Source of the DNA: Dermatophagoides farinae
Taxonomy: Eukaryota > Arthropoda > Arachnida > Sarcoptiformes > Pyroglyphidae
Assembly (NCBI RefSeq): GCF_024713945.1
Contig: NW_027461520.1
Span: forward strand, 1 to 64,000
Direction: 5' to 3'
DNA: 64,000 nt
The notes beneath the pieces were generated by a model that was given only the letters and a program-made list of their open reading frames with translations, did no database searches and was not told the origin of the DNA. The translations under genes and the position numbers were made by a program. The first letter of the stretch is position 1, and each line of letters begins with the position of its first letter. Below, one piece after another: positions 11,690 to 64,000 of the stretch.

Positions 11690-13066
11690 ATGGAAAATAA
11701 CATACAAAATCTAACATTTCTAAACGCAACAAAATCACAGTTGTCTTTTACCAACAAAGTTTGTCAGTCAAAGCCGTCGATCGAAGTTTATGCTGAACCA
11801 ACATCAATTTTTGATAAGTTAGACTCCAAAAAAATACTAGTATCCAGTCAATACCGTGAATTTAACAATGAGTAAGTTATAAAAATTAATTATTTTAGAT
11901 TTATTGAACACGTTAGAACTGTTTTAAATACAGCTATGATGATCGGAGGGGACGAGAAACTCGTCGCTGAAATGTTTCGATCATTTGAAGTAAATATAGA
12001 AAATCACAGTAATCTGATCAAGACCGGTTTTTATTCAAGTATAAATGTGTTTGTCAAACCAAAATTGAGAGAAGCGTTTATCGAACTAAACAAACAGAAA
12101 AAATGGTGTTTGCGTAAATATTCCTATGCTACATTTCACGAAGCAAGACAACTCGTCAATAGGTCATATGCGCTTGCTGCGGCTAACAGTGTGAAACTGA
12201 TTACATTCGACGGTGACGACACGTTATACCACGCTGGGCATAATTTTACAGAAGAAAAAATAGCTGAACGAATTGCAGCTCTTATTAATCGCGACATTTT
12301 TGTCGCTATTGTGTCAGCAGTTAATTATGGTAGCAACGAAGCTTTTTACGAAACTAGAATATCAAACTTGATAAATGTAATCAATGAAAAAACATCTTTC
12401 AATACTTTCTTAAGAAGTAATTTCATGTTTATCGCCGGACAAGCTGCTGAATTTTTCCGTTTGGATGAGTCTGGAAAATTGAAGCATGTACAATCCATTG
12501 ATATAAGCATGGCGTATTGTGAAAAATCCTACAACGGAAATGCTGACGATTGGAAAGATTTGCTTAACACAGCGGCCGAAGAACTTCAACTAGCGATTGA
12601 AGAATTTGGGCTTAAGGCCAAAATCATCAAAAAAAAACGTTCTGTAGGAATCGTACCTGACGACAAGAATACTTTAAAAACAACCCGATTGACGTGTGAA
12701 ATATTAAACGAACTGTCAGAACGAATCAGTTTGCTCTCCAAATGCGTTAGGTTCGAGCAGATTCCATGCTGCGTGTTTAATAGCAATTTTGACGTGTGGA
12801 TAGATATTGGGAATAAAGCCATTGGTATTTCTTTTTTGCAAAATTTGCTCAAGCTATCGCCATCACAAACTATGCACATAGGTGATCAATTCAATCGAAA
12901 CGGCAACGACGCATATGCAACCTTGGTAGCTACGTGTATCTGGGTGATTAACCCTACCGAAACTAGAAATATTCTCAAAACGCTTTGTAATCAAATCAAG
13001 GATAGAACTGTGCAAACGTTCTATTCAAGCAACCTAATCAACGGAGAATCTGAAACTATTATCTGA
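11690..13066 (+). CDS. ISN1: IMP-specific 5'-nucleotidase (ISN1 family)
   Basis: Two exons (11690-11871 and 11899-13066) give 449 aa. The HAD-type core starts KLITFDGDDTLYHAG, the ISN1-specific form of the DxDxT nucleophile motif, preceded by the family block FVKPKLREAF...WCLRKYSYATFHEAR. Downstream are GLKAKII, CVFNSNFDVWIDIGNK (the family's conserved NGG/DVWVDIGNK-like region) and THIGDQF-like MHIGDQFNRNGND. ISN1 dephosphorylates IMP to inosine in the purine salvage/degradation pathway and is found in fungi and some protists but not animals. The first exon contributes 60 residues, so annotating only the second exon would truncate the N-terminus. Clean frame. Confidence 0.9.
11872..11898 (+). 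other. Spliceosomal mini-intron, 27 nt (ISN1)
   Basis: GTAAGT to TTTTAG. Unspliced it puts TAA in frame one codon into the intron; removing it joins FNNE to FIEHVRTVL in the frame of the nucleotidase. Confidence 0.85.
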
Positions 13067-13196
13067 TAAAATTGTTTTATGAGTAAATGCTGTTTTTTAT
13101 AATTTAATTTTAATTATACGTGTTGCAGATCCAGATTTGTTATTCTGCGCGTTTACTTATTAGATCAGACAATCGGTCTAAATAATTTGTACAACA

Positions 13197-13937
13197 ATGA
13201 ACTTTAAAGCTAAACAGCTGTTCGGATCGTATTCATTAAAGAGTGTATGTTTTTCGATCTTAGTAATTTTATAGGGTTGTTATGCTGCTTCGTTATATAA
13301 GACGCTATTAGGAATTTTTTTGTTCGTCACGCTCAAGATTATACGACCTGATCTCTTAATAATTGGAATTTACATTTTGGTGTTTACTGGTCTTATGATG
13401 CTGGTTGGCTTAGGAGCAACATATAAAGAAAGCCAAAAAGCTATGATTGCATTTCTAATTTTAATGGTGATATCCAACATTGTAGAGATGTTATTTTATA
13501 TTGATTATTTCAAAATAGCAACGATTTTGCCTAAACCAAAGCATAAAATTACTCTCGTAAATATGAAGCCCATTGAATCCCAAGCAAACGGTCAAACAAT
13601 ATTGCAAAACACAAGAAAATCATCGTTAATAACTAACCCAGCAACTCATCCATTGCTATCGACTGGTGCTAGCTCTGTAATGGTGCATAGTCAGTCTCAT
13701 CCGCTAAAGACAGAAAGTTTGCACATAGTAAACCATGGCGTAAACCCTTTACAAACGCATGGAATTGTGAATAATAGTCAAATTGTTAAAAATGATACTC
13801 ACAATGAACTCCATACAGCACAAGTAAATACTGATCAGAACAAATCGTCTCCCAGTAGTCTTTCTCAAACAATAACAAATTTGCTATCAGCCCAGAAAAT
13901 GGAACATCAGACACCCGTCTCTACGTACGTTATATAA
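13197..13937 (+). CDS. Small multi-pass membrane protein with disordered tail
   Basis: Exons 13197-13244 and 13275-13937 give 236 aa. The open frame alone lacks an ATG at its start; the 30-nt intron supplies MNFKAKQLFGSYSLKS upstream. Residues about 17-110 hold three hydrophobic segments (YKTLLGIFLFV; IIGIYILVFTGLMMLVGLGA; MIAFLILMVISNIVEMLFYI), the rest is a Ser/Thr/Gln/His-rich tail. The G-C-Y entry and the spacing of helices resemble LAPTM/tetraspan-like lysosomal or vesicle proteins, but this is only a likeness. Function unknown. Confidence 0.65.
13245..13274 (+). other. Spliceosomal mini-intron, 30 nt
   Basis: GTATGT to TTATAG between SLKS and GCYAAS, phase 0. It explains why the downstream frame has no ATG of its own. 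Confidence 0.75.
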
Positions 13938-13991
13938 AAATGTAATTTTAATAACAGAAGCACTAATGAAAACAAATCACCAGAAATTGCT

Positions 13992-14274
13992 ATGGTTTCC
14001 ATCAAACAATCGTTAAAGTCACGTATGTTTACAAATTCATTAATCTTTAGATATAAAATTGATTTTTGCAATCAATATTCTAATTTGCAATTTGTTTGCT
14101 TGGTATTTCAGTTATATAGTGCTGTCTTTTACATTGAACAAGTGGTAAGTTAACACTGTGTCGTAAAATCTCGATAGCCAAAACTATGAAAATATTGACG
14201 AATTGCCCGATCAATTCGTTCCATTGTTAGATGATCATCTTTCCAATTTGAAAGCGTCTGAATTAGACCTCTGA
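13992..14274 (+). CDS. Cryptic 73-aa single-pass membrane protein, three exons
   Basis: No single reading frame shows this gene. Exons 13992-14022, 14051-14144 and 14178-14274 (31+94+97 nt) join into 74 codons with ATG and TGA. The product begins MVSIKQSLKSHIKL, has one long hydrophobic span (about residues 14-38, IFAINILICNLFAWYF and following), and ends in an acidic tail with ENIDELPDQF and LLDDHLSNL. Both introns match the GTANGT...AG, about 30-nt pattern of the other genes here, and both junctions are frame-consistent, which is unlikely by chance. Family not recognised; small ER or mitochondrial membrane-complex subunits have this size. It lies between the multi-pass protein and LysRS on the same strand. 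Confidence 0.6.
14023..14050 (+). other. Spliceosomal mini-intron, 28 nt
   Basis: GTATGT to CTTTAG, first intron of the cryptic 73-aa gene, splitting a CAT codon after its first base. Confidence 0.6.
14145..14177 (+). other. Spliceosomal mini-intron, 33 nt
   Basis: GTAAGT to CGATAG, second intron of the cryptic 73-aa gene, splitting a TGC codon after its second base. Confidence 0.6.
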
Positions 14275-14436
14275 TGTTATTTAGCTGTATTTAAAAAAGG
14301 ATATTTTCTTCTAACATAACTGGCGGAATTTTTATTTTAATAAAATTAAAAGCAATAATTAACTAAATAAAGAAGAAGAAATATCAAAAAACGCAAAATT
14401 TTTGGAATAGAATAGGCACTAACCAAACACTTAATT

Positions 14437-16026
14437 ATGTCAAAAACAAAAAAAGTAGATACAGTAGAGCCTGAGGCAAACGAAGCAGAAACTTTCAATT
14501 ATTACAAAGAACGATGCAAATATTCTGAGTCGCTAGACAGATCAGTTGCTTACCCCCATAAATTTGCGTGTTCAATTTCAATTCCGCAATTCATTGAGAA
14601 ATATGACTACTTATCTGTCGAAGAGCGTCTCAACGATGTTACTGAAACAGTTGCAGGTAGAGTCATGCGAATTGCTGGTTCATCCAATAAACTAGCATTT
14701 TTCGATCTCGTGATGGATGGCAAGAAGTTACAAGTCTTTGCGGACGCTCGCGAGTTCAATCACGGCGTTGAAGCATTTATCGATGTGAAAAACAAAATCC
14801 ATAGAGGAGATATTATTGGTATTACCGGTATTCCAGCGAGAACGAAACGTGGTGAACTGAGCATTTATTTGAAGGACGTTGCGATATTGTCTCATTGTTT
14901 GCACATGTTGCCTAAGCCACAATACGGTTTAAAAGATCCTGAAGTACGATTTAGAAAGCGTTATTTAGATTTAATAATCAACACAAGCGTGAGAGACTCA
15001 TTTGTTATTAGATCTAAAGTTCTCCAACACATTCGCAAATATCTCACAGAGCGCGAGTTTTTAGAAGTCGAAACCCCGTTGATGAACCAAATCCCAGGTG
15101 GAGCAAATGCAAAACCATTTGTAACTTATCACAATTATTTGAATTTGCAGTTATACATGCGAATTGCGCCTGAACTTTACTTGAAACAACTTGTCATTGG
15201 TGGTTTGAGCCGCGTGTTCGAAATTGGAAAAAACTTCCGAAACGAAGCGATTGACTTGACGCACAATCCTGAGTTTACTGCAGTCGAATTTTACATGGCT
15301 TTCGCAGATGTCCATGACATGTTGAAAATGACCGAAGATATGGTTAGTACGCTCGTTAAAGAGGTCACTGGAAGTTATGTGATCACATACAACCCCGAAG
15401 GTCTTGAAAAACCAGCTGTAGAAATAGACTTTACTCCTCCTTGGAAGACTCTTTCATTTGTGGGTGAAATAGAAAAACAAATAAACGCAGCCATTCCTCG
15501 GCCGCTCGAGAGTGACGAAGCCGTGAACTTTATGATTAATGTTTGCAATAAATATGACATTGAACTTCCATCTCCTGCAACAAGTTGCAAGTTGTTGGAT
15601 AAACTCTGCGCTCACTTCGTTGAGTCACAATGCCACAACCCAACATTTATAATTGATCACCCACAACTCATGTCCCCTTTAGCAAAATGGCACAGATCTA
15701 ATTCTGAGTTTGCTGAACGTGGGGAACTCTTTGTACTTGGACGCGAGCTTGCCAACTTTTACACAGAACTCAACGACCCTAAAACGCAATACGAGTGCTT
15801 TTTAAAACAAGCACAAGACAAGGCGAAAGGTGACGACGAAGCTTGTTTTATGGACAAAGATTATTGTGTAGCACTTGAGTACGGACTTCCGCCAACTGGT
15901 GGTTGGGGTTTGGGTATCGATAGGCTAATAATGTTTTTATCAAACCATTACAACATCAAAGAAGTTATTGCTTTTCCTGCGATGAGACCGATAAAAAAAA
16001 ACTTGGCGGCGCCAGAACAAGCATAA
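14437..16026 (+). CDS. KARS: Lysyl-tRNA synthetase, class II (LysRS)
   Basis: 529 aa, intronless, eukaryotic cytosolic type. N-terminal OB-fold anticodon-binding domain (about 70-185, with GRVMRIAGSSNKLAFFDL), then the class II core: motif 1 region EVETPLMNQIPGGANAKPF (from about residue 209), motif 2 FRNEAIDLTHNPEFTAVEFY (about 267-287), motif 3 GGWGLGIDRLIMFL (about 487-501). It charges tRNA-Lys with lysine at the expense of ATP. The highly charged N-terminal tRNA-binding extension of animal enzymes is short here (about 35 residues). No mitochondrial targeting sequence stands out. ATG 14437 is preceded by an A-rich leader. Confidence 0.97.
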   Translation: MSKTKKVDTVEPEANEAETFNYYKERCKYSESLDRSVAYPHKFACSISIPQFIEKYDYLSVEERLNDVTETVAGRVMRIAGSSNKLAFFDLVMDGKKLQVFADAREFNHGVEAFIDVKNKIHRGDIIGITGIPARTKRGELSIYLKDVAILSHCLHMLPKPQYGLKDPEVRFRKRYLDLIINTSVRDSFVIRSKVLQHIRKYLTEREFLEVETPLMNQIPGGANAKPFVTYHNYLNLQLYMRIAPELYLKQLVIGGLSRVFEIGKNFRNEAIDLTHNPEFTAVEFYMAFADVHDMLKMTEDMVSTLVKEVTGSYVITYNPEGLEKPAVEIDFTPPWKTLSFVGEIEKQINAAIPRPLESDEAVNFMINVCNKYDIELPSPATSCKLLDKLCAHFVESQCHNPTFIIDHPQLMSPLAKWHRSNSEFAERGELFVLGRELANFYTELNDPKTQYECFLKQAQDKAKGDDEACFMDKDYCVALEYGLPPTGGWGLGIDRLIMFLSNHYNIKEVIAFPAMRPIKKNLAAPEQA

Positions 16027-16215
16027 GAGTTAGTTAGTTTTTTTGTTTCATATTTTATTGATTATGCATGTACAATTTGAATGCGAATGGTTTTCGTTAA
16101 ATTTGCTAGGAGGAAGTTAAATATGTAACATATTTATCAATAATACCGGTAGCAAATCGATAATAATGTATATAGAAAAGAAGTAATAAAAAGATTAAAT
16201 TAACAGAGTCATAAT

Positions 16216-17379
16216 TTATGCATTAACTTTTTGTCTCTTAGAACTAGGACCGTAGAAAATACGTTTTTCTTCAGAAGTTTGGAATCTACCGTGACCAATC
16301 TTAGAAGCAGTGTCGATGAATTTAAGTTCAACTTCTTCTAAAGCTTTACGGTTGGTGTTAACGATGATGGGCTTGCGTAAAGTAATTACTCTCTTACGAG
16401 GTCCAGCTACAGTTCCTTTAATCATCAAGAAGTTGTTCTTGACAATACCGTAGTGAGGGAAACCACCCATTGGAGTGATAGACTTTTCAGTGATATCACA
16501 GCTAGTGGTGGCGTTACTAGCGTCGTCACCATTACCAATTCTGTATATCTTCTTGTTCATTTCGGTTCTGTGATGGTAACCCATTTGACCGCGTCTAGCT
16601 ACTTGGAACTGGACACGAGCTGGATGCCATGCACCGATACAAGCTACCTTACGTAAACCACGGTGCGTTTTTCTAGGAAGTCTTGTGACACCCCATCGCT
16701 TGATGACACCTTGAGTACCTTTACCCTTGTTAATGGAAATGGTGTCAATATTTTCGTTAGTTTCAAAGACAGAGTTAACTGAAACGGGTTTTTCGAAAAG
16801 ACCAAGAGCAAAGTCTACTTTGTCGGAAATTGAGCCACCGTTAACTTGGATTTCATTGATGTGTGCTTTCTTTACACCAACTGGAGTGAGACTTGGCTGA
16901 GTGTGCGCAATGACTCGGACGACAGAACATTTGTCTTTGATGAGCTTGATAGTTTCTTCTTTAGAAATAGCTCGCTTTTCATAGTTGGTAAAAGCCTTTT
17001 TCTTGGAAGTGTACCACTTCTTGTAGAATCTTCTTCGGAATTCATCAGAAAGGTGGTCAGCCCAAAGAGTCTTAATAGGCTTAAGCCCGCGTGGGGTTTC
17101 GATGTAGCCAACTAAACCAACAACGTACATGTCAGGAGTTTCAATGATAGTAACAGCTTCAACGACGTCTTTTTTGTGGAGGTTTGAACCTGGTCTGTTG
17201 ATTTCACGAACAACGTGGGTCATGCCAGCTTTGTATCCCATGAAAGCAGTGAGGTGGCAAGGCTTACTTGCATTGTCAGCTGGAAAAGCCTTTATACGTC
17301 CGTGACCTCGTCGGCATCTTTTTTTGGGTAAGAAACCTAGGGAACCGTGTCTGGGTGATTCAAACTTTCTATGAGACAT
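16216..17379 (-). CDS. RPL3: 60S ribosomal protein L3 (uL3)
   Basis: 387 aa, the usual eukaryotic length. Begins [20 protein letters not shown] and carries [15 protein letters not shown], the central [39 protein letters not shown] and the [14 protein letters not shown] block containing the conserved His region near the peptidyl-transferase centre. uL3 is among the first proteins assembled on 25S/28S rRNA. Single exon, clean frame, with a CTACCTTACTAG-type leader just before the ATG. Codon use is more regular than in neighbouring hypothetical genes, as expected for a highly expressed gene. Confidence 0.97.
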
Positions 17380-17607
17380 TTTTTCTAGTAAGGTAGAATA
17401 TTAATTCGCAATTATTTTTGAATATAGACAGAAACGGATGAAATGTTATATTCGTCTATAGCAAATTATAAGCTTATATTTCAATTAACTCTTATTTATT
17501 TTTGAATATTTCGAACTATAACGTGTGTTGCAGTCCGCTTTAACAAGTTATTCAAGTAATTTAAAACAATAATTTTGACTTTGAAAATTATTGTTTTTTA
17601 TTATTTT

Positions 17608-17941
17608 TCAGCGTGATGGAATTTCTACAATCTCTGGTTCCTTATTTCCATGCTTTTTAATTGCTTCTCTTATCTGATCAGCTGCCTGAAAAAATATATT
17701 TGGGTTAGCACGTACGCTTTTGCTGATGATAATAATTGAAATTTCTTTTCGCTTCACGAAAGCATTAAAACATTCTTCAATTTCAACGGTTTTGGTGTCT
17801 AAAATAGCTTGGTAGTAGCAACGTACCTTTATCACATATAAAAAAGTTTTTTTCATTATTTTTTTTTTCGCCTATCCCTGTAAGTAAAAAGCCTGCTACA
17901 GTTTCAGAGTCTCCAATCAACGCAATAGTATTTTGATTCAT
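17608..17941 (-). CDS. VMA7: V-type ATPase subunit F
   Basis: Two exons (17941-17827 and 17798-17608) give 101 aa; subunit F is normally 110-125. Exon 1 holds the family signature IALIGDSETVAGFLLTGIGE; exon 2 holds TVEIEECFNAFVKRKEISII and the C-terminal PEIVEIPSR. Subunit F sits on the central rotor stalk of the V1 sector and couples ATP hydrolysis to rotation for acidifying vacuole and endosomes. ATG 17941 is the first Met directly before the signature; upstream codons in frame are not conserved. Without removing the 28-nt intron the two halves lie in different frames. Confidence 0.88.
17799..17826 (-). other. Spliceosomal mini-intron, 28 nt (VMA7)
   Basis: On the minus strand GTACGT to TTTTAG. 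Splicing joins ICDK to DTKTVEIEE, restoring the continuous subunit F sequence. Confidence 0.88.
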
Positions 17942-18075
17942 ATTTCCGTTATAATGTACTAGCCGATTAAAAAATTTTTTTGGTGAGTAGTGTGAGTTAA
18001 ATTGATCAAACAACACTTGAGGAAATATCAAAATATTAAATAGATTAAAAAATAAATTTACAGTCACAATTAGCA

Positions 18076-19699
18076 TTACTGTGGAAAAAAAGATTGGAAC
18101 GTTAGTTCTGATGTTAAGAAAGGGTCATAATACATTATGATATTTTCATGCATTGACCAAACAACATTTCCTTCACTTGATGGAACAGTTGCTGGCCAAG
18201 ATTTGTGTTTAAGTTTGCACATGAGTGCATTTTCCGCATTATTGATATTTTTTTTTGCCGATAAGTCATCCATAACTTTTTTCTTGATAAGATTGCTTTT
18301 ATATGTTATACACCAATGGTCGTGATGTGGTTTTACTGACGGCTTTGAAAAAATTTTAAAAACCTGCAACGGGTCAAACAGCTCTTCTTCGATCTTGACC
18401 CAGGCTTGTTCGCATGCGTAAATCCATAAGTTATGAACAAACTTTGTGTTTTCGCTGCAAATGGATCTCGCCCGTTCTGTTGACATAGAAGGTCGGACGA
18501 CAATTACGTGGGTTACTTCATCGCTAAGCGTGTCAACAACTTTGGCACCCATTCCAGTTAATTTTTGCGTGTTAATCCATACATTGTCAAGCATTCCGTA
18601 CTGACTGACTTGGTCTGAGCGATGATACCCCGACAGAAAGACTACGCAGTCAGACAAAATAGTTTGGTAGATGTTTTTTAGGATTTTGGGAAGTGAACAA
18701 GCGATATTGGCGGATGAATATTTTTGATAACGAGCGTGTGCTTCTTCTAACAAATTCGCAAGAAAATAGAGTTGTCGATCATAATCTAAAACGTTAGTGA
18801 TGTTATGATAGCTTAAATCATTGTTTTTGCTGGTGTTATTGGAGGTGTTGGGAAAGAAGCTGTTGGCAGCCGCAGTAGGAAATTTGGCTTTTTGGTTGAG
18901 CGCGATTGATTCACGCAACACATCTAGATAATCATAATAATTAGATTTGATTATGTTTGGATACAATGAGGACGACCAAACATCTGTGCGATCATCCACT
19001 ATTAACAATTTATCTTGCACATCAATATTTTTGAACAACTTTTTTATATCTTTTTTATCGTCTAAGGCATTATCTGGGTTTCTGGCTGCCACTCTAAAAA
19101 AATGAAATATCACATTTAAGTGTTACTTTGACTTACCGATTTTTGAATATTGTTCGATCTGAGTCTAAGAGACTTAGCACAATATCAGAGTATTCTGGTG
19201 TAGCGTTAGTAGACACAGACAGCCTGAAATACTTATTTGCTACTCGTAAGAACTGGTGAACCCCAGGCCGTAATTTGATGTAGTATAAACTGTCTGGTAA
19301 TCTAGCAATCTTAAATTTGAAATATTCGTCGTACTTAAATAAACTCGAAAACGAAGGAAATTCGATGTTCAAGTTATAGATCCTTGACTGATTGATCGTA
19401 TGAATCAGGGTGTTATCCAGGTCTAACACCAACTCAAGCTTAGAATTCACGTGAGTTACGGGCAGCCTGGGAATAAGCGCTGGGATAATCACTTCTGACT
19501 TTTTCTGCTGTTCATATTTCCTCGCTTCCAAAGAAAAAAAAGAATAAGGAGAATAAACGTTGCTGCTAGAATTGTTCCACACATCTATATCGGAAAAGGA
19601 GCATGTATCTTCACCTAACACTTCACTGAAAACTTTGCGAAAATTATTTGCAGTAATTTTGCCTGAAGTGTCGATGATTGCATGGTCATAGAATATCAT
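18076..19699 (-). CDS. FCP1: RNA polymerase II CTD phosphatase FCP1
   Basis: Two exons (19699-19137, 19093-18076) give 526 aa. FCPH domain: LVLDLDNTLIHT with the DxDxT nucleophile (residues 93-97), KLRPGVHQFLR, SVSTNATPEYSDIVL, then after the intron LLIVDDRTDVW. The FCP1 spacer DYDRQLYFLANLLEEAHARY precedes a BRCT domain (VVFLSGYHR...THVIVV...VHNLWIYACEQAW). FCP1 removes Ser2/Ser5 phosphates from the Rpb1 C-terminal repeats for polymerase recycling. Shorter than animal FCP1 because the acidic TFIIF-binding tail is missing. The N-terminal biotinyl-like segment is also reduced. Clean frame outside the intron. Confidence 0.93.
19094..19136 (-). other. Spliceosomal intron, 43 nt (FCP1)
   Basis: On the minus strand GTAAGT to TTTTTTTAG. 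It splits an Arg codon (CG|A) and joins RTIFKNR to VAARNPDN, matching the F-x-x-R(V) stretch of FCP1 proteins. Confidence 0.9.
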
Positions 19700-19837
19700 T
19701 AAAGAAAAAAGTTTTTCGCTTTATTGTAAAAAACCGACTGCAAGGCCTACTAACTAAGGCACTTATAGATGAAAAATATTTTATAGCTCCTCAATTGTAA
19801 AAATGAAGCATAAAAATATTAAGACAATTAAAACTAA

Positions 19838-20352: not shown

Positions 20353-20548
20353 AATAATTTGTAATCTTGTTTTAAGATTATTAAAGTTTTCATAAATTGC
20401 TTTTACATAATTTTCAAATCAGCAATTCAAATTGTTCTAAATTTTTGTTATTTAATGTAACTGTTCAAATAACATATAATTCCTTATACTATTTATTTAG
20501 TTATCATTATTCTGACTTCTACCATTATAATACAGCTTTTTTACACAT

Positions 20549-22497: not shown

Positions 22498-22561
22498 AAA
22501 CATAAACTTTAATAAAGTAAAAATATAACAGTTGTTCCTTTTGTATTTTAAAGAAACGTAT

Positions 22562-30635: not shown

Positions 30636-32263
30636 ATGACTTCTACTGACAATAAACAATGTAAGTATTGAGTTGTACTCGACTTTGAACATACTTTCTT
30701 TATAGATTCGATAGTTGGTTCATGCGTGAAAACAGATCAATGTCTCAACAGTTGCGAGCATTTATCGTTTCAGGAAGCTAAAAATAAGTTGGGTCTTTCC
30801 TTGGCAAAAAAAATTTGAGCTTGGATCTAAAAGCAATATGCTTGTTCGTAGAAGCAACAAAGATGACCTTTCCAAGCTTAACAAAAACCAAAAAATTCGT
30901 TTCAAGAAAAAAAAGAAAATATTTCGATTGAGGATTTAAAGTTACCTAATATGATGGGTGCCAATGTCAAATCTACAAATTCTACCTTTAAAAATTCTAA
31001 AAATCGATCGATACTTTCAAGTTTATCGTTCGAGAAAACGGAGGGCGTTGAAGGGTCAATCGATGAAACTGAAGAAGAGCGCATTAAACGTCTCTGAACT
31101 AGCTAAATCTTTTTCACGCCTAAGCCAGAATTTATCAATGAAAAACAAAGCGTATCAGAATAGAAAAATATTGAATAAAGAGAGAAGCTATCAAAATTCT
31201 GAATTTCGTGTTAAAAAGCTGAATGAAAGTATTGGGGACGCACTAAATTTATTTGAACATTTAAAATGGTGATGATGTGAATATGTCCGGTTTTCAACAA
31301 TAAAAGCTTGGAAATTAAAAGTCGCGACAATTCAAATATCACAAGAAAAAGAGGTAACCGTTTATCAATCATTTCTAACGACTTGCTTTACGGTAAGTTT
31401 TATGAGAACAATGAACATAAAGAACATTCAATGGTCGGAGTAAAACAACGTCAACCGAACAAACGGGTTGAAGTTTTTGATGAAGATGTTATTGCAGAAT
31501 CGCAGAAAGATAACGCACTGTTTGCACAATCTGAACTGGAGAAAAAAGAGCTTGAGCTAAAAAAAAAACATACCTGAAATTTTTCCATTGGATCATCGCG
31601 CCGCAGTTGCGAATTCTTCGAACACCGTTTGAAAATGGATTATCGCGTCAGTTCGATTCAGGAAAGCAATATTGATTACGTTTACAACTTGTTAATGAAT
31701 TCGTTAAGCAAATTGAAAGTTGTAAAAGAGTTGAAAGAGAACTTTTATAATTTCTTTGAAAACGAAGAAACGGTATTGGAAAGCGGGGGCAAGGCTGTAC
31801 GACGCGCTGATTAACATGGCGAACGACTGTGAAAAACCAGACTCAGTGTGTAAAAGGCTCGGAGCGTCGATTCATGACGTAAATAACTGGCTTCTTGAGT
31901 ACAGTTGTGAATATGGCATGAACAAGTTATTATTTAACCAAGCACAAAACATAATGAAATCTCTCGAGACAACAGAGAAAGAAATCTCTCAATGATAAAG
32001 CACTTATATACGAGACAATACACAACAAGCTCTGTCATTACAACAAGTCACAAAGCCTGAGCTTTTCAAAAAAATGGTTTGCTGACTCGTTTTCATTCTA
32101 CACTAGTCAATTGCTCGATTACCTCTACATGAACGAAGCTCTCGAGATTGCAACGGGAATCATCAATTTACTGCAAAAGCCAAGTGTGGTGGCACAGCTA
32201 CAGAGATACGCAAAATCTAGAGGTTACAATATAAAGTTTGTCTTTTATAGACAATACCTTTAA
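30636..32263 (+). CDS. Unrecognised acidic/basic helical protein with a 5' mini-intron, frame-broken
   Basis: Exon 1 is 30636-30660 (eight codons, MTSTDNKQ), followed by a 45-nt intron and exon 2 from 30706 (SIVGSCVKTDQCLNSCEH). The middle is charged and disordered (GVEGSIDETEEERIKRL; KKELELKKK), the C-terminal 170 residues are helical (LYDALINMANDCEKPDSVCK; SFYTSQLLDYLYMNEALEIA). Breaks near 30818, 30915, 31095, 31275, 31572, 31630, 31790 and 31990. About 520 aa when read across. No family recognised; the C-terminal domain is the part best suited to a profile search. Confidence 0.4.
30661..30705 (+). other. Spliceosomal mini-intron, 45 nt
   Basis: GTAAGT to TTTATAG, eight codons after the ATG at 30636, splitting a TAT codon after its first base. 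Confidence 0.65.
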
Positions 32264-35635: not shown

Positions 35636-36579
35636 TTAGGCATGCAAATGTATTGATTGGACAGATACTAGCCGTTCTCTCCTTAGACGAGTATTTAGCG
35701 CTTTGGTAATTACTGGCGCAACAGAGTCACGATCGAGTTTTTTTGTCAACAGTGCAGAAAGAATGAAAATCCTGCCGATTGGAGCCAAATCGTTTAAAAT
35801 AGACAAATCAAAATGACGAGTGGCAATAAGGAAAATCGAAAGTAGAACGTAAATCCCACAGTCGTATCCGTTAGTTTGGTTAGGTATGCGCGAATTCATA
35901 ATTTCTGTATGGATGGGAGGACACACTGGATCATATAGCAAGCGCAAATAAGCCCCGCCATATTTCAGCTGAAAAGGCGCATTGCACGAGTAAAAAGACT
36001 TTTTTTTTCTGTATACGCGTTTGTATTCGTCGTTTAAGTAGTGTTCGATAACAGTAATAAATCGATCAGTGTGAGTTCTGTGGTGCGAATTGGGTGATAG
36101 ACTATCAAATAGAAAAATCAGCTGGCTTTTGACATGTACAACAGCCAAAAGCCAATGGTTGTTGTTGAGATTGAGCGGGAAAAAAAAGCAAATTTTTTTC
36201 AAAGATTGTCCCATGTACGTGTTGAGTCCACGTTGACACGTTTTCAAAGTTGTAGGTGGACCTATAAAAATAAGTCGGGATTAAATGACAAGTGAAGACA
36301 TGAAACGACAAAGCATTGTTTTGGGTCTTCGGCAAATTTTTCAGTTAGCAATTCAGCAAACGCGTCTATGACGTAGTCGTCGAGCCAAGTTTTATCGCTA
36401 AGTGAATGGTAAACCTTAGGAACTCTGAGTTTAGAAAACATCGACTGCAGTGTATATTTCGTGATACCATTAGAAGTAACGTCGAAAGACTTAGGTTCTA
36501 TTGGAATATAATGTTCGTTTATGACAATTTCATCATTGATAGGTTCGTCACTATTAGTTGGATCATTGGATAATGACAT
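35636..36579 (-). CDS. Ulp1-type cysteine protease (peptidase C48), frame-broken
   Basis: Minus strand from ATG 36579. N-terminal half leads into SLSDKTWLDDYVIDAFAELL, the W-L-x-D entry of C48 proteases. The catalytic set is complete: NNNHWLLAVVHV (His-Trp), FLFDSLSPN (Asp) and QTNGYDCGIYVLL (Gln, Cys). Such enzymes mature or remove SUMO-like modifiers. Compared with SENP/Ulp1 there is an insertion of about 60 residues between Asp and Cys (FYSCNAPFQLKYGGAYLRLL). Breaks at an A4 near 36325 and a T7 near 36190, after which YNFENVSTWTQHVHGTIF joins directly to the catalytic part. About 310 aa, no membrane segment. Confidence 0.75.
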
Positions 36580-43815: not shown

Positions 43816-44910
43816 TTAATGTTTGTAACGTTCTTTTGCCTCGTATGCGAGTTCAATTATCTCGTTAAGAAAATACTTTTTGGTTTTTGTAGATTCGTCT
43901 TTCATATATTTGGGCTTTGTTGGATCGCGTAAATATTGTTCAATACGCTCTAGTTCGTTAAATATATTTTGTACATGGTTTAATAACTCGTAAAATTTAT
44001 TGTCATATGCAGAAAAACCTGAACCTTTATGTTGAGCGAAATTTTTATAATAGATTAATTCTTTGTTAAGGTTTTCGTTTTCTCTTATTAATTCTTTTTT
44101 TTTTTCATAAGATATTTTAGGATTGCCTATAACGAATTCATTGGAATGAATCTTCTTTTGCGATTTGTCCTATTTTATCTAAAATTTCTTTTGTTGTTTT
44201 GTTAGTTAATTTCGATGTAAAATCAAGAAGATTATCAACCATCTCAGGTTGATTTGTCGAAGCAGATATATGAGCGTTTGTCGAATGGGGATGTGAAAGA
44301 GATTCTATAAGGTCATTATGATGAGCATCATGTTTTAATTCTTGAGAAAAATTAGGGGTGGGAAAAGGTTTTCCATCAACCATATTATGTTCAGAATTAA
44401 CGAGGTGTTTATTAATTTCTAATACCTTAAATCTCTGCTCTTGTATCGGCTTTTTAGTTGATTTTGGTGTAGAACTATTAGAAATCGCAGCTTTGTGAAC
44501 CTTAACCGGCACAGCATAGATGTGATCGTTGGACGAATGAGGATGTAAATGAGATTTTATAAGGTCATCATGAGAATGAACATGTTTTAACTTGTGAACG
44601 GAATCAGATGTTAAATAAGGTTGGTCAACGATCCGATTATTATGAAAATTTTTGGAATCGAGATGATACAATCTCATTATCAGATTTTGTATGCCGTAGT
44701 TTCGATTTTTCTTGTTTATTGCTCGAAGCTAAATTTTCAAAGTAGTTTATCAAGTCTGGCACAGTGCCTAAAAAAATTTAAGCTCATAAACGTACCTAAA
44801 TGGGCTTCAACGATTTTAGAGCATGACAACAGAATTTGCTAAAACTTATGTTTTAAATTTTTACCTACGAAAAAGAATAATGCTTGGAATGACAACAACC
44901 TGTTTGTCAT
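43816..44910 (-). CDS. Secreted His-rich protein with two mini-introns, frame-broken
   Basis: Exon 1 44910-44869, exon 2 44838-44796, exon 3 from 44767. Splicing yields a signal peptide MTNRLLSFQALFFF-QILLSCSKIVEA that no single frame shows. Next come two imperfect repeats of about 85 residues, HKLKHVHSHDDLIKSHLHPH and ELKHDAHHNDLIESLSHPHS, each followed by S-x-x-HI, then a helical C-terminus (KKELIRENENLNKELIYYKN) to TAA 43816. His clusters could bind metal ions. Breaks at an A5 near 44648 and near 44152. About 330 aa, no anchor, so likely secreted. No family recognised. Confidence 0.55.
44768..44795 (-). other. Spliceosomal mini-intron, 28 nt
   Basis: On the minus strand GTACGT to TTTTTTTAG, splitting a Gly codon after its first base. 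Confidence 0.65.
44839..44868 (-). other. Spliceosomal mini-intron, 30 nt
   Basis: On the minus strand GTAGGT to GTTTTAG, 14 codons after the ATG at 44910, phase 0. An internal GT 4 bases later would shift the frame into a stop. Confidence 0.65.
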
Positions 44911-56679: not shown

Positions 56680-56860
56680 TAAGGAATCAAATTAAACTTT
56701 TCTTATTGTAAATGCATTTAACGAACTAATAGCATTTAAAAATTTTTGAACAATTGTTATTAGTAAAATAATCTATACAAATTAATTAATTGAATTTTTT
56801 AAAAAACGAATATACTCGGTAAAGATAATTTGCACACAAAATCAGAATAGTCAAACTAAT

Positions 56861-59011
56861 ATGTATGATGCCGAAACTTTGCTCAAATGGGTTCATTATA
56901 AATTTATAACTGAGTTTAGTTTATTCAGTGAATTTTTGGACATTAAGAAGATAAAAACGTCTGAACTTAAAAATGTAAAAGCTAGTTCATTCAGAAAACA
57001 GCTGGGATTCGATTTGGACTATCTCAATGAAGACAGCAAAGTGAGTGGGAAGCAACTTGTCAATTTAGAAAATTTTCATGCAGAGTTCGTACAAGAAATC
57101 GTTGAAGTTTTAGAATCATTTGCTTATTTCAGAGACAAAGACGTATGTAGAAATATTCTTTTTGTAGATGGGTGTCAGGAACATAGTAACTCCTTCAACA
57201 ACGTTTTTTTTGCACAAGTTTGTCAACGTTTATGCGGCATTATTTTGGCGTTGTTTGTGTTATCCAAATATCGGATGGAAAATTTGACGGAGCTTGAACA
57301 GATAGATAGTTACGTGAATTTCAAAAAATTAGTGGCTAGTAATTCCGAAGATTTGTTTATAAAACTGAGCGATTCATGCATATTCACAATAGAAATAGGT
57401 TCTAGTCTGATATATTTCGTATTTAAATTAACGGAATTCAATATCAAGCTGCGAACTGAAATAAAAAAAAACAGTCTTAGTTGTAAAAATCTTAGCCACA
57501 CATATGTGAAACAAAGTTTTAAGCCTTGTTTAGGAAAAGGCTGTTTGAAATTGCTTGAAACTATCAATGATGAAACAGAAAAAAATATCCCACCAGATTA
57601 TAGGACTTTTACTTTTACAAAAGATCTGCAACAACTCACCGATTTACTTTTGTCGAGAAAAAACAATTTGAAAAAACCTAAAACGCCTAAAGGAACACGC
57701 GACTTTCACCAGTCCGAGATGAAGATGCGTAATATAGTTATAAATGAAATTACTAAGGTATTTCGATTGTTTGGCGCTGAAGCCATTGACACTCCAGTCT
57801 TTGAACTCAAAGAAATTTTGGTTGAAAAGTATGGAGAAGATAGTAAACTTATTTATGACTTAGCGAATCACGGTGGAGAATTATTGGCTTTAAGATACGA
57901 CTTGACGGTTCCTTTTGCACGATATTGTTCGACTCATGACGTTGAAAAAATTAAACGTTTCCAAATTGGAAAAGTATATCGTCGTGATGAACCTCAAATG
58001 AATAAAGGTCGATATCGTGAATTTTACCAATGCGATTTTGATATTTTGGGTCAATATAATGAATTGAGTTCTGATGTCGAAGTTCTATTAGTGATTAATG
58101 AAGTTCTAAAGCGATTCGATTTATTTTTTAGTCAGTACACAATAAATGTAAATCACCGCTCCATTTTGAACGCGATACTTTCCGCTTCCGGAGTAGACAA
58201 AAAAAATATTCCAGTGGTTTGTTCCTCTATTGATAAATTGGACAAGCAACCATGGGAAGAAGTAAAAAACGAATTAATAATGGTCAAACAGATAGATGTT
58301 GCCGTGGTAGACAGAATAAAAGACTTGATTTTGTTTGATGGATCTAATCAGGAAATCATTCAGTTTTTGAAGGAAAAACAAGAGCTTCATTCTGATAAAA
58401 ACTTTAACAAAGCAATTCATGAATTCGAAAAAATATTTTTTATTTTAGACAACGCAAGTATCAAGCTTAATTTAAGTTTAGCACGCGGTCTTGATTACTA
58501 CACAGGCATTATTTACGAAGTGACTATAAATGATGATGCTCTTGGAGTAAAGACTATAGCTGCGGGTGGGCGATACGACAATTTGTTGCGCTGTTTCTCA
58601 AATAACTGTATCCCAGCTGTGGGTGTGAGTTTTGGATTAGAAAGGTTAATGACGCTCATATTAGAAAAACTGGTTTCCGACCCGGAACTTTTTGACAAAT
58701 GGCTACCGAACAACAAAGTTTTACATGTTTACATAGCGAAATTGAAAAATGTAGATTTAAAAGACGTTATAATCCTTGCAAATAAATTACGAAAAATTGG
58801 AATCGTTACTGAATATTCACTCAAAACTAACCAGGGTTTAAATAACGAGTTAAAGACTGTTTTAAACGCTAAAATTCCATATATGGTTATTATGGGCGAA
58901 GATGAAATAAAAAATGGAATTATTTCTATAAAAAATATGGAAAAAAATTTTCAATACAGAATAAATTTTAACGAAGTTGAGAGTTTTTTCAATTCAATTA
59001 TTTGTAGTTGA
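56861..59011 (+). CDS. HARS: Histidyl-tRNA synthetase with long N-terminal extension
   Basis: 716 aa, well above the 430-510 of most HisRS. The catalytic core starts at TPKGTRDFHQSEMKMR (residue about 276); motif 2 is KGRYREFYQCDFDILG (about 382), the histidine-A signature is LARGLDYYTGIIYEV (about 541), followed by AAGGRYDNLL and a class IIa anticodon domain (TEYSLKTNQGLNNELK, PYMVIMGEDE). It charges tRNA-His. The first 275 residues are helical, lack a recognisable WHEP motif and have no organelle-targeting look (MYDAETLLKWVHYKFITEFS). Its tail, KDLQQLTDLLLSRKNNLKKP, resembles the linker before eukaryotic HisRS cores. Confidence 0.93.
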   Translation: MYDAETLLKWVHYKFITEFSLFSEFLDIKKIKTSELKNVKASSFRKQLGFDLDYLNEDSKVSGKQLVNLENFHAEFVQEIVEVLESFAYFRDKDVCRNILFVDGCQEHSNSFNNVFFAQVCQRLCGIILALFVLSKYRMENLTELEQIDSYVNFKKLVASNSEDLFIKLSDSCIFTIEIGSSLIYFVFKLTEFNIKLRTEIKKNSLSCKNLSHTYVKQSFKPCLGKGCLKLLETINDETEKNIPPDYRTFTFTKDLQQLTDLLLSRKNNLKKPKTPKGTRDFHQSEMKMRNIVINEITKVFRLFGAEAIDTPVFELKEILVEKYGEDSKLIYDLANHGGELLALRYDLTVPFARYCSTHDVEKIKRFQIGKVYRRDEPQMNKGRYREFYQCDFDILGQYNELSSDVEVLLVINEVLKRFDLFFSQYTINVNHRSILNAILSASGVDKKNIPVVCSSIDKLDKQPWEEVKNELIMVKQIDVAVVDRIKDLILFDGSNQEIIQFLKEKQELHSDKNFNKAIHEFEKIFFILDNASIKLNLSLARGLDYYTGIIYEVTINDDALGVKTIAAGGRYDNLLRCFSNNCIPAVGVSFGLERLMTLILEKLVSDPELFDKWLPNNKVLHVYIAKLKNVDLKDVIILANKLRKIGIVTEYSLKTNQGLNNELKTVLNAKIPYMVIMGEDEIKNGIISIKNMEKNFQYRINFNEVESFFNSIICS

Positions 59012-59039
59012 AAACTCATTCATTTAAAAGCGCTCGGTA

Positions 59040-61004
59040 ATGTATGAATTTGAAAAAAAAAAACTGCGCAATGAAATTGATTTTATAATTTTTCTTGTTC
59101 ATGGTGTGTCACCCAGCAGTGCTATGCTACATAATACTAAGGGGAAATTTTTTGATACGTTCAGCAAGCTAGAAGATAAATGGTTCTCGTTATCAAACCT
59201 TACTTATCGCGTCGAAATGATAAATTGGAAAGATGCAATTTTTTACAAACAAACTAACGTGATGAATCAAGTTTTTGTTTGTGGAAATCTGGTGAAACGC
59301 AACTTTAAGAATAATCAGTTTAAGGAAGAAAACCTAACTGCCAGCATAATAAACCCAACTGAATCACATATTGATGATTTCACTTCAATTAATTCGGTTT
59401 CTTCAGTTGAAAGAAACGCTTCCCACGTGTCGTTTTTCGAGAACCCGCACATCACGACTGATGCTGAAGATTCTTTACTTTTTAACACAAACATGAATAA
59501 CTTAATGGTGTTTAACGAACAGTTTCGCACGTGGGGGATGCGCATCTACATCCGAAATCTAGTTGCAGACTACACGTGCTACTTCAACTTGGTATGGCGT
59601 AAAAGCATGATTAAATCATTAGCAACTACTTTAAATAATAAAGTTAAAAATTTTCGTCAAGACCCCTCTGGGGCTTATAAACATAGTAAAATAGTTATCG
59701 TAGCGCACAGTTTAGGCTCACAGCTGATCTTCGACATTTTAACCGCTGATTCGTTGCTTCGCAACGAATCACTGCTGTTAAAAAATTATTTGGCGAACAA
59801 CAAAACGCAAGAAGATGGAAAAAACTTTGAAAACCTGAAAAATGTTTCTCACCAATTACTGAATTTCAAGCTTGATTTTTTTTTCGCCCTAGGTTCTCCC
59901 ATAGCCAACCACTACGCCATGCAGAACAAGAAAATGTTCAATAAAAACCCGTTCCGCGTTACTGGACAGAACTTCACTCGGTTTTACAACATCTTCCATT
60001 ATTCTGATCCGTTTGCAGCGCGTTTCGAAGCCCTTTATTACACTACTTTAAACTTTATTCCGGCTCCTATCGTCATCAAATCGCACTCTAACAAATTTTG
60101 GTACTTTATCACCAACAAACGAAAATTATTCAAATACTTCCCTGTGTTTAAAGAAATCACGGATGATTTGACAAATAAAATATACAATCACAAAAAATTT
60201 CGCAACTTTGTCAAGTTCAATAAGTATAATAGAGCTCTAGAGTTGCCGTTCAGAATCAACTTCGCCAACAGGTACGGCGTTCTGGGCAACGGCAGCGAAC
60301 CTCACATTAAATCTGCTCTGCACACGCTTTCTACGCTTAAACCCAGGGCTTCACGCAATTTTACTTACGACTTGCCCACGTTGTTTTACCATGAAAACAT
60401 TTCTTTAAAGTTAAACGAAGAACTCATTTTCAGGACTCGCTGCATCAGAAAACTAATTATCAATTATTTTCACAAAGTTGCAACTCCTTTGAAGAGAAAA
60501 AAGTCCAAGTACAAGTCTTTCCAAAATTTCACAATGAGAGCAACCGATTTTATAATTTATTATTACATTTATTCTTTCTGCAAAAATAAACTTAAGTTTA
60601 AGCATTCGTACAGTAACCTCACGTTTGACGCCTGGCTCAAAATCGGCGAGATAAGCGATCACGAAATGACTTATGAACTATTCAAATACGAAGTGTTCAA
60701 AAACTACGGGCACCAAGAAGGCGATCTCGAAACTCGAAGAGGTTTGACTATCCCTTCGAGATTCGATTTCTCTTTGCACAAACCGTTTGAAAAAATTATA
60801 TTCCCAGATCTAATCATCGCGCTTAATTCTCACATTTCGTACTGGGGCTGTCAAGAAACGATATGTTTCATTATACGCCAAATCGTTGGGGGCAACCCCA
60901 CGCTTCCTTGTAGCATACTAAATTCGCTTAAAGAAAATCAAAAAAGTGCAATTTACACTATACAAGGGCTCATTAGAGTAAAAATGTTTTTTTTAACTTT
61001 ATAA
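59040..61004 (+). CDS. DDHD-domain phospholipase (PA-PLA1 / DDHD1-2 family)
   Basis: 654 aa, ATG 59040, 28 bp after the HisRS stop. The alpha/beta hydrolase entry is FIIFLVHGVSPSS; the lipase nucleophile motif is IVIVAHSLGSQLIFDIL (Ser about residue 223, first Gly of GHSLGS replaced by Ala, as in some members). FFALGSPI and FYNIFHYSDPFAARFEALYY (about 281-335) are the DDHD family hallmarks. These intracellular enzymes release fatty acid from phosphatidic acid and related lipids at ER/Golgi membranes. The C-terminal domain contains further His/Asp residues but the DDHD residues are not conserved in an obvious line. Clean frame. Confidence 0.85.
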   Translation: MYEFEKKKLRNEIDFIIFLVHGVSPSSAMLHNTKGKFFDTFSKLEDKWFSLSNLTYRVEMINWKDAIFYKQTNVMNQVFVCGNLVKRNFKNNQFKEENLTASIINPTESHIDDFTSINSVSSVERNASHVSFFENPHITTDAEDSLLFNTNMNNLMVFNEQFRTWGMRIYIRNLVADYTCYFNLVWRKSMIKSLATTLNNKVKNFRQDPSGAYKHSKIVIVAHSLGSQLIFDILTADSLLRNESLLLKNYLANNKTQEDGKNFENLKNVSHQLLNFKLDFFFALGSPIANHYAMQNKKMFNKNPFRVTGQNFTRFYNIFHYSDPFAARFEALYYTTLNFIPAPIVIKSHSNKFWYFITNKRKLFKYFPVFKEITDDLTNKIYNHKKFRNFVKFNKYNRALELPFRINFANRYGVLGNGSEPHIKSALHTLSTLKPRASRNFTYDLPTLFYHENISLKLNEELIFRTRCIRKLIINYFHKVATPLKRKKSKYKSFQNFTMRATDFIIYYYIYSFCKNKLKFKHSYSNLTFDAWLKIGEISDHEMTYELFKYEVFKNYGHQEGDLETRRGLTIPSRFDFSLHKPFEKIIFPDLIIALNSHISYWGCQETICFIIRQIVGGNPTLPCSILNSLKENQKSAIYTIQGLIRVKMFFLTL

Positions 61005-61090
61005 AATTTTACGTTTTTTTAAATTAAATTAAATACTTATATTTTTTGTTAAAAATTGACTTAGATGCTCAATTGAATAAATAGCAAATT
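61005..61090. promoter_or_regulatory. Short spacer with probable promoter and terminator signals
   Basis: 86 bp between the DDHD stop and the importin ATG, about 85% A+T, with AATTAAATTAAATA and AATAAATAG. It must contain both the 3' end signal of one gene and the start signals of the next, showing how tight spacing is. Confidence 0.35.
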
Positions 61091-64000
61091 ATGCAGTTAG
61101 AAGAGTTAGTATTCCGTAAGTCAGAACAAACATATAATATTCGTCGCAGAACTGGGAAATGTTCAATCGAGCAACGTGGCACTGCGAAAGCAAGCAGAGT
61201 ACATTCTGCAAGACTTAAGTTCGAACCCGGATTTGGTGAAGCAACTATTTTTTGTGATCGTCACGACAACATACTCTGAGGTTTTGCGACTCACGGCTTG
61301 TATTCAGTTAAAAAACATGATTGCCACGAAGTGGCATCACAATAAAAAGTCTAACGACGATAATCCGCTCGACGTGATAAGTGAACAAGACCGCGTTTTC
61401 CTGAGCCAAAATTTATTTTTCATTGTCAAAGGAGCTTTGCTTCAAAGCTTCAACTTGGCCAAAAACGTCAAGATTCTGTCCGAAATGATCATCAGTCGTA
61501 CTTTATTGAGCAATTGCATGGACCATGCAAATCTTTTTGTTGAATTGTACAACAGCAATGACTCCGACAACATACTGGTGGCAACGACTGTGTTTTCCAT
61601 CTTAACGAACAAAATTCAGGAAATGCTGAAAAACATTGAAAAATGCCGTTTTTCAGAACTGATCGAAGTCGTGATGCCAATCATCGAAAAGTTCTTGGGG
61701 ACCTTCGTTGGCACGGTCGAAAACTCTTTGCCGAGCGTCTTCTTTGCTTACCACGCTGCAAAAATTTACTACAACTTGCTTTTATGCAGTCTAGAGAAAT
61801 CCTCTTATTTAGTACGATCCCAAAATTTTTGGATGCATCACTTGCTGCTACTTTGGAAAGCTCCTTACACATCCGGCCCCAACTACAACATGAATGACCT
61901 GTACTGTTACCATTTTGTCAAAACGAAGAAATGGGTGGCTAAAACCCTCTACGTGGCACTATCCCGTTTTTCGTACAAACCCAGAGAACCCAACAACTAC
62001 CTCAGCGTGTACACTAAAGATTTCGTCCAGCTTTACGGGCCCACCTTTTGTACTGAAATACTAAATTTATTCCACCAAGCAATACAAACACAAAACTTTT
62101 TCGATATTCCGAAAGACCAGTTCAACCACTGGCTTTTATATCGCAAAACCCTAACATTCAGTCTGGACTTTCTCTCAACCTGCCACGAACCAACGGTTAT
62201 TTACAAAATATTAAAACCGAACGTAATAAACTTCGTCTTTTCAATAATCTTTCCTATGCTTGCATACACGAAATACATGATTGAAGAATACATGCTCGAC
62301 CCGGAACAGTTCTGCGACGGGGTCATCGACGATTATGACATTACTGGTTCTGCACGACAAAGCGCTACCGATTTTGTTAGAAGCCTCATCAAATACAGGT
62401 CTAGAGATTTTTTCAACCCAATAATCAGCCGGGTGCTGCAAATTCTCAATACTGCACGAGCAATGCCTTCAAAAGAACTTTTGTCCCAATCTTCTCTTTG
62501 CAGATACGCAGCATTTGGCTTACTAGACGCTTGCTCATTCAAGCTTTCAGCTACTCTGACAAAACCAACCCAAGATTTCAACTTAGAAGCGTTCCTCAAA
62601 GAATACTTGATTCCCGAAATGCATCAGTCTAACCTGAACATTTTCGTCAAAGCTCAATCATGTAAATTGTTTGGTTCTTTGTTTGGAATCAATAGACTAA
62701 GACGTTCTGGACACAACCACATTGTTGACATGCCTATGTTCTTGGAAGCTTACAACTTGCTGTTAATTTGTTGCAATGACAACGACTACGGTGTCAAACT
62801 AGAAGCCACGCGTGTCTTGCCCAAGCTACTCCTTTCTGACCACCCCAGTCTCGGTGCTTTCGTATCCCAACGCATCCAGACCATTTTGGAAATTCTAATC
62901 AAGTCTTTGCAAACCACACAATTGACAGAGGTTTCCATTACTGCTTTAGAAACGGTTGTCGAAAAATTCAGCACTCTCACTCTGCCGTTTAGCCTTGAAC
63001 TGTGCAAAATGCTGACCAACGCTCTCGAAACGGAAATACAAAAGTACGAAAAGCAGGCTAGTTCTAGTAACGCTGGCCAATTTGAACTTTACAACGCCCA
63101 TACACGAACAACACAGTGTATTTGCTCTACAATTAGTACGATTATTGACGCTTTCATAACAAGCAAAAACGCTTCTTTTTCGTTATACCAATTTTACGAA
63201 ATCGTAAAACCTACTATTAAGCACGGGTTTTCGCCAGAAGGTTCGTCTAACTTGATGAATTGCGCTCAAATTCTTTCCGTCATTACTTACGGATTTGACC
63301 AGTTGCCTCCTGAATTGTGGGAACATTATGATTCAATCTATCGAGTTCTCTTAGAAAATAATGATGATGGAGATGATGGAGGCGAAGATTTTTCCGCGTG
63401 CCTTGCTGTTCTTGATAACTATGTCACTAACGGCAAAAATGTTTTCCTCCACGGTGTCAGCTCGTCAACGGGCATGAAATATCTAGACATGTACTTCCAA
63501 CTAATTAAATCCGCTGTAGAAATCACTTGGGATTTCGAAAAACGTGTGTGTGGATTATGTCTAATCTGGTTCTTGATCGACACTTATGCTTGTAACTTAG
63601 AAAACATAAGTATGTGTATGAACACTATTATAAGTATGGTCCAAATGTTTACCAAACTTAAATCTATTGAACACACCTGCAGTTTTAGTGATATGTTGAC
63701 AAGAATCTACCTGACATTGTTAGTTGCAAATCCTCCATTTACCTTTGATCTAATTTTAAATAATAGGATTGATTTCGACATAATTAAATGTAAAGTACTT
63801 ATCCAGAATAATACTACACGAAAAATATATTTAACGGCCATTTGTAAGTTGTTGCAGCTTGAAGCACAAGGCAGCTTAGTTTTACCTCCGAAAATCACCA
63901 CCGAACGCGCAGCACTGTTAGATAACCTGGTTAAAGTTTTATCAACCTATACCAAAAATAAAGAAATAGAAAACTCTGACTACGACTATGATGATGGGTT
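61091..64000 (+). CDS. Importin-beta family nuclear transport receptor (importin-7/8, Nmd5-like), partial
   Basis: Exon 1 61091-61115 (MQLEELVF), 34-nt intron, exon 2 from 61150 open to the window end: about 958 residues seen, C-terminus missing. N-terminal importin repeat: NVALRKQAEYILQDL, RLTACIQLKNMIATKWHH (the L-K-N-x-I-x-x-x-W signature), then HEAT-like helices throughout, IEEYMLDPEQFCDGVIDDYD, a repeat with DYGVKLEATRVLPKLLLSDH, and an acidic loop NNDDGDDGGEDF near residue 775. This order and the size fit importin-7/8 and yeast Nmd5/Sxm1, which import ribosomal proteins and other cargo. Clean frame over 2.85 kb. Confidence 0.82.
61116..61149 (+). other. Spliceosomal mini-intron, 34 nt
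   Basis: GTAAGT to GTCGCAG, splitting a CAA codon after its first base and joining LEELVF to QLGNVQSSNVALRKQ. Without it the receptor has no ATG in frame. Confidence 0.85.

Follow-up and report, generated by a model that had tools for sequence, protein, structure and literature searches.

Short segments in the window

The window analysed here is a stretch of 64,000 nucleotides (nt), C17:1-64000, in an assembly of 62,435,336 bases and 22 contigs (C1-C22); our subject is a set of ten short segments in it that begin with GTANGT and end in AG, proposed in an initial annotation as spliceosomal introns. All ten are present in the window sequence exactly as described in position, strand and length (27-45 nt). 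Their donors are GTAAGT in five cases, GTAGGT in one, and GTATGT and GTACGT in two each, while nine end in TAG and one in CAG. The spliced and unspliced forms around each junction were translated, and the spliced proteins were scanned against Pfam. We accept nine of the segments as putative introns, with graded confidence, and exclude the one at 30661-30705: four of the nine junctions lie inside conserved protein sequence, and the other five have reading-frame support.

Two of the four conserved junctions belong to genes on the minus strand. The 28-nt intron of VMA7 (V-ATPase subunit F; 17799-17826, gene 17608-17941 if the start is MNQN) is placed inside the PF01990 match (residues 6-101) and within a continuous PDB alignment of residues 5-101. 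In an FCP1-like phosphatase (18076-19699), with a BRCT domain following its NIF domain, the 43-nt intron at 19094-19136 has its junction at residue 187.7, within the NIF match at 90-241. The other two interrupt a single 73-residue protein on the plus strand (13992-14274), where introns of 28 nt (14023-14050) and 33 nt (14145-14177) have junctions at residues 10.3 and 41.7, both within a PF11200 match spanning residues 4-60 (E 5e-9).

Removal of the 27-nt intron of ISN1 (11872-11898, plus strand; gene 11690-13066) opens the frame to an ATG and yields a protein of 449 residues. Its junction, at residue 60.7, is upstream of the PF06437 match (80-420), and the PDB alignment likewise begins downstream of it, at residue 107. 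Hence, while the junctions of VMA7 and FCP1 are anchored by conserved domains as originally proposed, the anchoring claimed for ISN1 is weaker. The count of introns within the first 60 codons also has to be lowered from nine of the ten to eight, with ISN1 at codon 61 and FCP1 at codon 188.

The remaining accepted introns add short 5' exons or join short frames. In a membrane-protein-like gene (13197-13937, plus strand) that has no Pfam match, a 30-nt intron (13245-13274) joins a 16-codon exon with an ATG to a frame of 220 residues. In an importin-beta-like gene (61091 to the window end, plus strand), a 34-nt intron (61116-61149) adds the ATG exon MQLEELVF, with the junction at residue 8.3, upstream of the IBN_N domain at 24-91. 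The last two are found on the minus strand in a short gene with a hydrophobic start, where excision of 30 nt (44839-44868) and 28 nt (44768-44795) yields a protein of 70 residues with no domain match. Against 60 random sequences with the same dinucleotide statistics as the window at 20-51 kb, such a double splice was observed once for a mean of 0.02 and was reached by 1 of the 60. By the same test, single splices like that at 30661-30705 (45 nt, plus strand; spliced frame of 45 residues with no domain) numbered six for 2.87 expected, with at least six arising in 8% of the random sequences; this segment is thus indistinguishable from chance. A third intron at 44.8 kb, with a GTGCCA donor, would lengthen the gene there to 226 residues and is not claimed.

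The region around these segments (20000-51000) is gene-sparse. It has short open reading frames (ORFs), one of them for a Ulp1-type peptidase (35636-36247), and His/Ser-rich motifs that recur near 44.1-44.9 kb, and it may encode a set of variable secreted proteins.

The putative intron class on other contigs and its splice signals

The contigs C11-C22 include C17 and are treated here as belonging to a putative parasite, as argued in the following section. From them we examined further genes of families with matches on C11-C22, some of those matches being broken, together with stretches placed at actin-family matches or at an arbitrary coordinate (L032-L035). The additional introns come from ten stretches, selected partly for broken matches. 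Twelve of them cross conserved protein once spliced. For instance, a proteasome alpha subunit (PSMA6) on C21 has three introns of 29, 31 and 27 nt, and its spliced product aligns with PDB entry 5fmg over nearly its whole length. SmE on C16 (28 and 27 nt) and a centrin on C11 (27 and 30 nt) have two each, and in both proteins the alignment, in the former to an SmE chain, spans both junctions. Single introns within the matched domain are found in LSM2 (29 nt; the scanned protein starts without an ATG), an LSM8-like (28 nt) and an LSM7-like (25 nt) protein, a methyltransferase on C21 (30 nt) and PSMD12 on C15 (28 nt). A 27-nt intron in a proteasome alpha gene on C19 was judged by eye, and its splicing gave no ATG-to-stop frame in the examined stretch.

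Taken together, 22 introns are supported: 16 that cross conserved sequence (four in the window and 12 outside it), the one judged by eye and five supported by frame. Under search ranges that extended to 70-89 nt, their median length is 28 nt, with 21 of the 22 at 25-34 nt and a cluster at 27-30 nt.

A frame-joining gene finder with a fixed donor and introns of 18-70 nt was run on eight parasite loci (the window, L032-L035, L004, L006 and L016). With GTANGT as donor (142 occurrences) it returned eight introns, of 27-34 nt plus one of 45; ten decoy donors gave between none and three introns each, with lengths scattered over 23-67 nt. The intron signal overall is more than chance. Two further results count against the individual assignments and the motif. 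Only two of the ten claimed introns were adopted by the gene finder, namely 61116-61149 and that starting at 11872, the latter with an acceptor at 11916 in preference to 11898. Across 26 intronless coding sequences GTANGT occurs 18 times against 26.6 expected (P 0.03). GTAAGT itself, however, shows no avoidance (5 versus 6.1), and the control motif GTTNGT deviates equally in the upward direction (66 versus 50.6); accordingly, we give this avoidance little weight. The short exons carry little coding signal. A version of the gene finder that accepted any GT and introns of up to 400 nt was uninformative: of its 12 introns ten were at least 58 nt long (maximum 388), and none of the ten claimed introns was among them.

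These results also bear on whether the segments might be frame errors of sequencing or assembly, or genuine in-frame insertions, that mimic introns. The parasite contigs do hold frame breaks at which no GTANGT intron is present, and the gene finder passed over most of the window introns. Against this, 16 joins restore conserved sequence, with one gene requiring three of them, the lengths cluster at 27-30 nt, and the decoy donors yield few and scattered joins. We therefore regard such errors or insertions as a very improbable source of the segments, and treat the latter as putative introns in what follows.

An example of such breaks is a proteasome alpha gene on C13 (L045, C13:40900-42100, minus strand, around 620-840), which has two of them, one near a run of nine A, with no GTANGT intron seen there; either base-calling errors or a decaying copy could account for them. 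Another stretch (L051, C11:12700-13800) has a candidate 20-nt intron, GTATAA...TTTTAG (360-379), before a proteasome beta gene. The start codon of this gene is uncertain, and the candidate was left out of every count.

We examined the splice signals in a set of 25, comprising the 22 supported introns, the segment at 30661 and two introns found by the gene finder alone (L032 7875-7904 and L034 2177-2205). The donor is GTAAGT in 18 of the 25. The presence of GTANGT in all 25 is less telling than it appears, since the motif was the search criterion and the uniformity of the donors is partly by construction. At the 3' end, TAG is found in 23 of 25 and T predominates at positions -3 to -6. The initial annotation saw no common TACTAAC-like branch sequence, and this is borne out: TACTAAC occurs in none of the 25, YTRAY-type motifs occur in five against a shuffle mean of 7.3, and nothing is enriched. 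A fixed branch motif is not obligatory for U2-type introns. Upstream of the acceptor, A is found in 0 of 25 at -6, 6 at -7 and 9 at -8, with a mild peak of 16 at -12 (P 0.002 before correction for ten positions). A T at +7, which the parasite U1 would favour, is present in 13 of 22; with an interior T content of 0.41 this is no clear excess, and no such preference is claimed.

Composition, spliceosome and lineage of the contigs

C1-C10 sum to 58.83 Mb and C11-C22 to 3.61 Mb. A principal component analysis of tetranucleotide composition separated 15 loci of C1-C10, without overlap, from four loci of C11, C12, C14 and C15 and six pieces of the window. With a 5-mer score that misassigned 5 of 200 pieces in a leave-one-out evaluation, all 14 further loci of C11-C14, C16, C18, C19 and C21 fell on the side of the window (C20 and C22 were not covered), and 9 of the 14 C1-C10 loci scored were placed on the other. 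Separate versions of Prp8 (788 and 530 bits) and of PHF5 (170 and 95 bits) occur on the two sides. To judge from these sequences, the assembly appears to combine two genomes: an animal-like one of 58.8 Mb and, with 3.61 Mb, that of an apicomplexan-like parasite. Our impression is that the larger genome is that of an animal, and it probably belongs to the host of the parasite. A house-dust mite was considered as this host and is not proposed: C1-C10 have seven matches to the ML (Der p 2) family, but the best reaches only 55.5 bits.

The spliceosome is represented on the smaller contigs by several components. A U1 small nuclear RNA (snRNA) on C18 scores 72.8 bits against a gathering score of 69.5; its 5' end begins AAACUUACCUG, and it is very unlike the U1s of C7. 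The Prp8 PROCN domain is found on C14 (529.7 bits) in a frame of 2341 residues, PHF5 on C20, and a DEAH helicase nearest to spliceosomal helicases on C12, and there are 11 LSM loci on C11-C22. The introns have GT-AG ends and a donor complementary to U1, as is characteristic of the U2 type.

Certain observations on the snRNAs tell against these assignments. The search for U1, U2 and U6 suggested in the initial annotation recovered the first of these on C18, while neither U2 nor U6 turned up on C11-C22 in family searches (scoring the best 46 and 48 candidates, on incomplete contigs), nor did a U2 pattern with up to three mismatches find anything there; matches to both are found only on C3, C6 and C10. 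Moreover, the 5-mer score placed 5 of the 14 C1-C10 loci with the parasite, and each is a U1, U2 or U6 locus: the two scored U1 loci of C7 (+37 and +20), one U6 locus of C3 (+15) and two of the three U2 loci of C6 (+1 and +9). We interpret them as atypical non-coding DNA from the larger genome, and they are the main loose end of the split. As for the missing snRNAs, 14 proteasome genes are expected in eukaryotes and we found 11 distinct ones on C11-C22, which indicates that these contigs are incomplete; and since the assembly seems to hold two organisms, the snRNA matches on the large contigs are not informative for the genes considered here.

The same snRNA loci, together with the presence of all contigs in one assembly, are what would speak for a single 62-Mb eukaryote with tiny introns as the source of both sets of contigs. 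The compositional split without overlap and the two divergent sets of Prp8, PHF5 and U1 argue otherwise, as does the occurrence of the sole alveolin match on C14, with the caveat that the gene content of C1-C10 was surveyed only shallowly. A single organism is, in our judgment, hardly credible, and we continue with C11-C22 as a separate, parasite-like genome.

Rfam at E 0.1 gave a single weak match in the window, below its cut-off, and none in nine parasite loci; ARAGORN found no transfer RNA gene in the window or in eight parasite loci (L004, L006, L016, L032-L035 and L043). The U1 genes of C7 form two inverted pairs (C7:2790867-2880559), with identical copies about 84 and 90 kb apart. A few CCCTAAA (TTTAGGG) telomere units are present at the beginning of C14 and of C16, and we count them towards an apicomplexan affinity. 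Of the 15 contig ends examined, 11 have no telomere repeats, nor does the window start; one end read N. C11 starts with CCTAA repeats (C11:1-180), the arthropod-type telomere repeat, although other stretches of C11 are parasite-like; this start is possibly a chimeric contig end.

To place C11-C22, ten proteins were compared with the PDB, the organism labels of the entries being presumed. An apicomplexan entry ranks first for four of them, namely ISN1, uL3, PSMA6 and LysRS. ISN1 matches 6rn1, which we take to be from Plasmodium, at 168 bits against 95 for 8j6h, presumably from yeast. For the uL3 ORF (16216-17379, minus strand), the best match is 5xxb (presumably Toxoplasma) at 603 bits, followed by 9ygm at 572 (organism not named); the best entry taken as non-apicomplexan reaches 562, and 4v8p, which we take to be Tetrahymena, is far down at 522. 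The PSMA6 of C21 scores 182 bits with 5fmg (presumably Plasmodium) versus 171 and below for others. The ORF of LysRS (lysyl-tRNA synthetase; 14437-16026, plus strand) is closest to 5eln, which we assume to be from Cryptosporidium, at 633 bits. In addition, a single match to the alveolin family (IMCp) was reported, on C14 (E 1.4e-6). Alveolin marks alveolates and not Apicomplexa alone.

The protein comparisons also contain much that does not favour Apicomplexa. The other six proteins rank non-apicomplexan entries first: actin and VMA7 are nearest to animal actins and V-ATPases, centrin to yeast and animal centrins, SmE to 9l5r, the DEAH helicase to fungal splicing helicases, and a C16 proteasome beta subunit to kinetoplastid-like entries, which score well above the Plasmodium one. 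Even for LysRS, the human enzyme (628 bits) is near the best match and above the presumed Plasmodium entry (604). These six proteins and the lone alveolin match (the one on C14) would fit some other alveolate, such as a perkinsid, a chrompodellid or a ciliate with the standard code. On the other side, uL3, ISN1 and PSMA6 favour the apicomplexan entry by more than 10 bits under the presumed labels, and the presumed Tetrahymena entry is distant for uL3. A non-apicomplexan alveolate is therefore unlikely, and we conclude that C11-C22 probably represent an apicomplexan-like alveolate.

C11 also encodes a HAP2-GCS1 gamete fusion protein (L032:927-3800, minus strand, E 4e-27), which suggests a sexual stage. 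Among the literature matches listed, which cover the field in part, there is no report of this parasite.

Our preferred explanation, to which we assign a probability of about 0.85, is that the segments other than 30661-30705 are U2-type spliceosomal introns centred on 28 nt, and that they belong to an apicomplexan-like parasite whose nuclear genome (C11-C22) entered one assembly with a larger, animal-like one. In this scheme, the canonical 5' end of the U1 snRNA, ACUUACCUG, would pair with the GTAAGT-type donor; a spliceosome with Prp8, PHF5 and Sm-LSm components would use an adenine that belongs to no fixed motif and probably lies 7-12 nt from the 3' end; and a short T-run followed by TAG would mark the acceptor. 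Both the splicing of the segments and the position of the branch are here inferred from the genomic sequence.

Comparison with known short introns

The initial annotation held that lineages with introns this small differ in genetic code or genome type; this overlooks the Apicomplexa, where Porospora has them in an ordinary nuclear genome (PMC9250747). In Porospora cf. gigantea A and B, the introns have a median of 28 bp [27-30], with 71-72% in a class of 25-30, and intron-bearing genes have a mean of 1.8 introns; the assemblies are 8.8-9.0 Mb with a GC content of 54%, and a strongly conserved adenine is located 6 bp upstream of the acceptor (PMC9250747). The introns described here resemble these in residing in an apicomplexan-like nuclear genome and in their length, with the same median of 28 nt. 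They differ in that A is found at -6 in none of the 25 and, if the distance is counted from the AG, at -8 in only 9 of them; the window, moreover, has a GC content of 33%. The introns at most hint at a gregarine affinity of the parasite.

Paramecium reads stop codons otherwise. In contrast, the standard code leaves the long frames here uninterrupted, and apicomplexan entries rank first for some of the proteins. Very short introns are nevertheless common to both, with a median of 22 nt in Paramecium caudatum (PMC5485702), and the apicomplexan Babesia microti has introns of 20 bp (cited in PMC9250747), compared with the 25-34 nt seen here; the uncertain candidate in L051 would equal them in length.

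A 2023 paper puts the sequenced apicomplexan genomes between 130 Mb and about 9 Mb (PMC10210345), and that of B. microti was termed the smallest apicomplexan genome in the title of a 2012 paper (referenced in PMC9250747). Tentatively, and at somewhat less than even odds, C11-C22 might make up the greater part of the nuclear genome of an apicomplexan that infects animals and is undescribed so far as our matches go. Such a genome would measure around 4-5 Mb, clearly below the smallest reports that we found (B. microti, Porospora and Ophryocystis), with nearly all introns at 25-34 nt and with no fixed position for the branch adenine. If C11-C22 are near complete, the known lower limit of genome size in Apicomplexa would fall.

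Tiny introns test the minimum of RNA needed between donor, branch adenine and acceptor. If our interpretation is correct, a second apicomplexan class of 28-nt introns, unlike that of Porospora in having no fixed adenine, would allow the limit on length to be told apart from that on branch position, and parasite contigs would sit within the assembly of a larger genome. The more surprising part is this mixed assembly and the small parasite genome in it. Introns of 28 nt are of a known kind, already present in the Apicomplexa in Porospora; what is new in comparison is the lineage, the absence of a branch adenine at a set position and, perhaps, a genome of record-small size for an apicomplexan.

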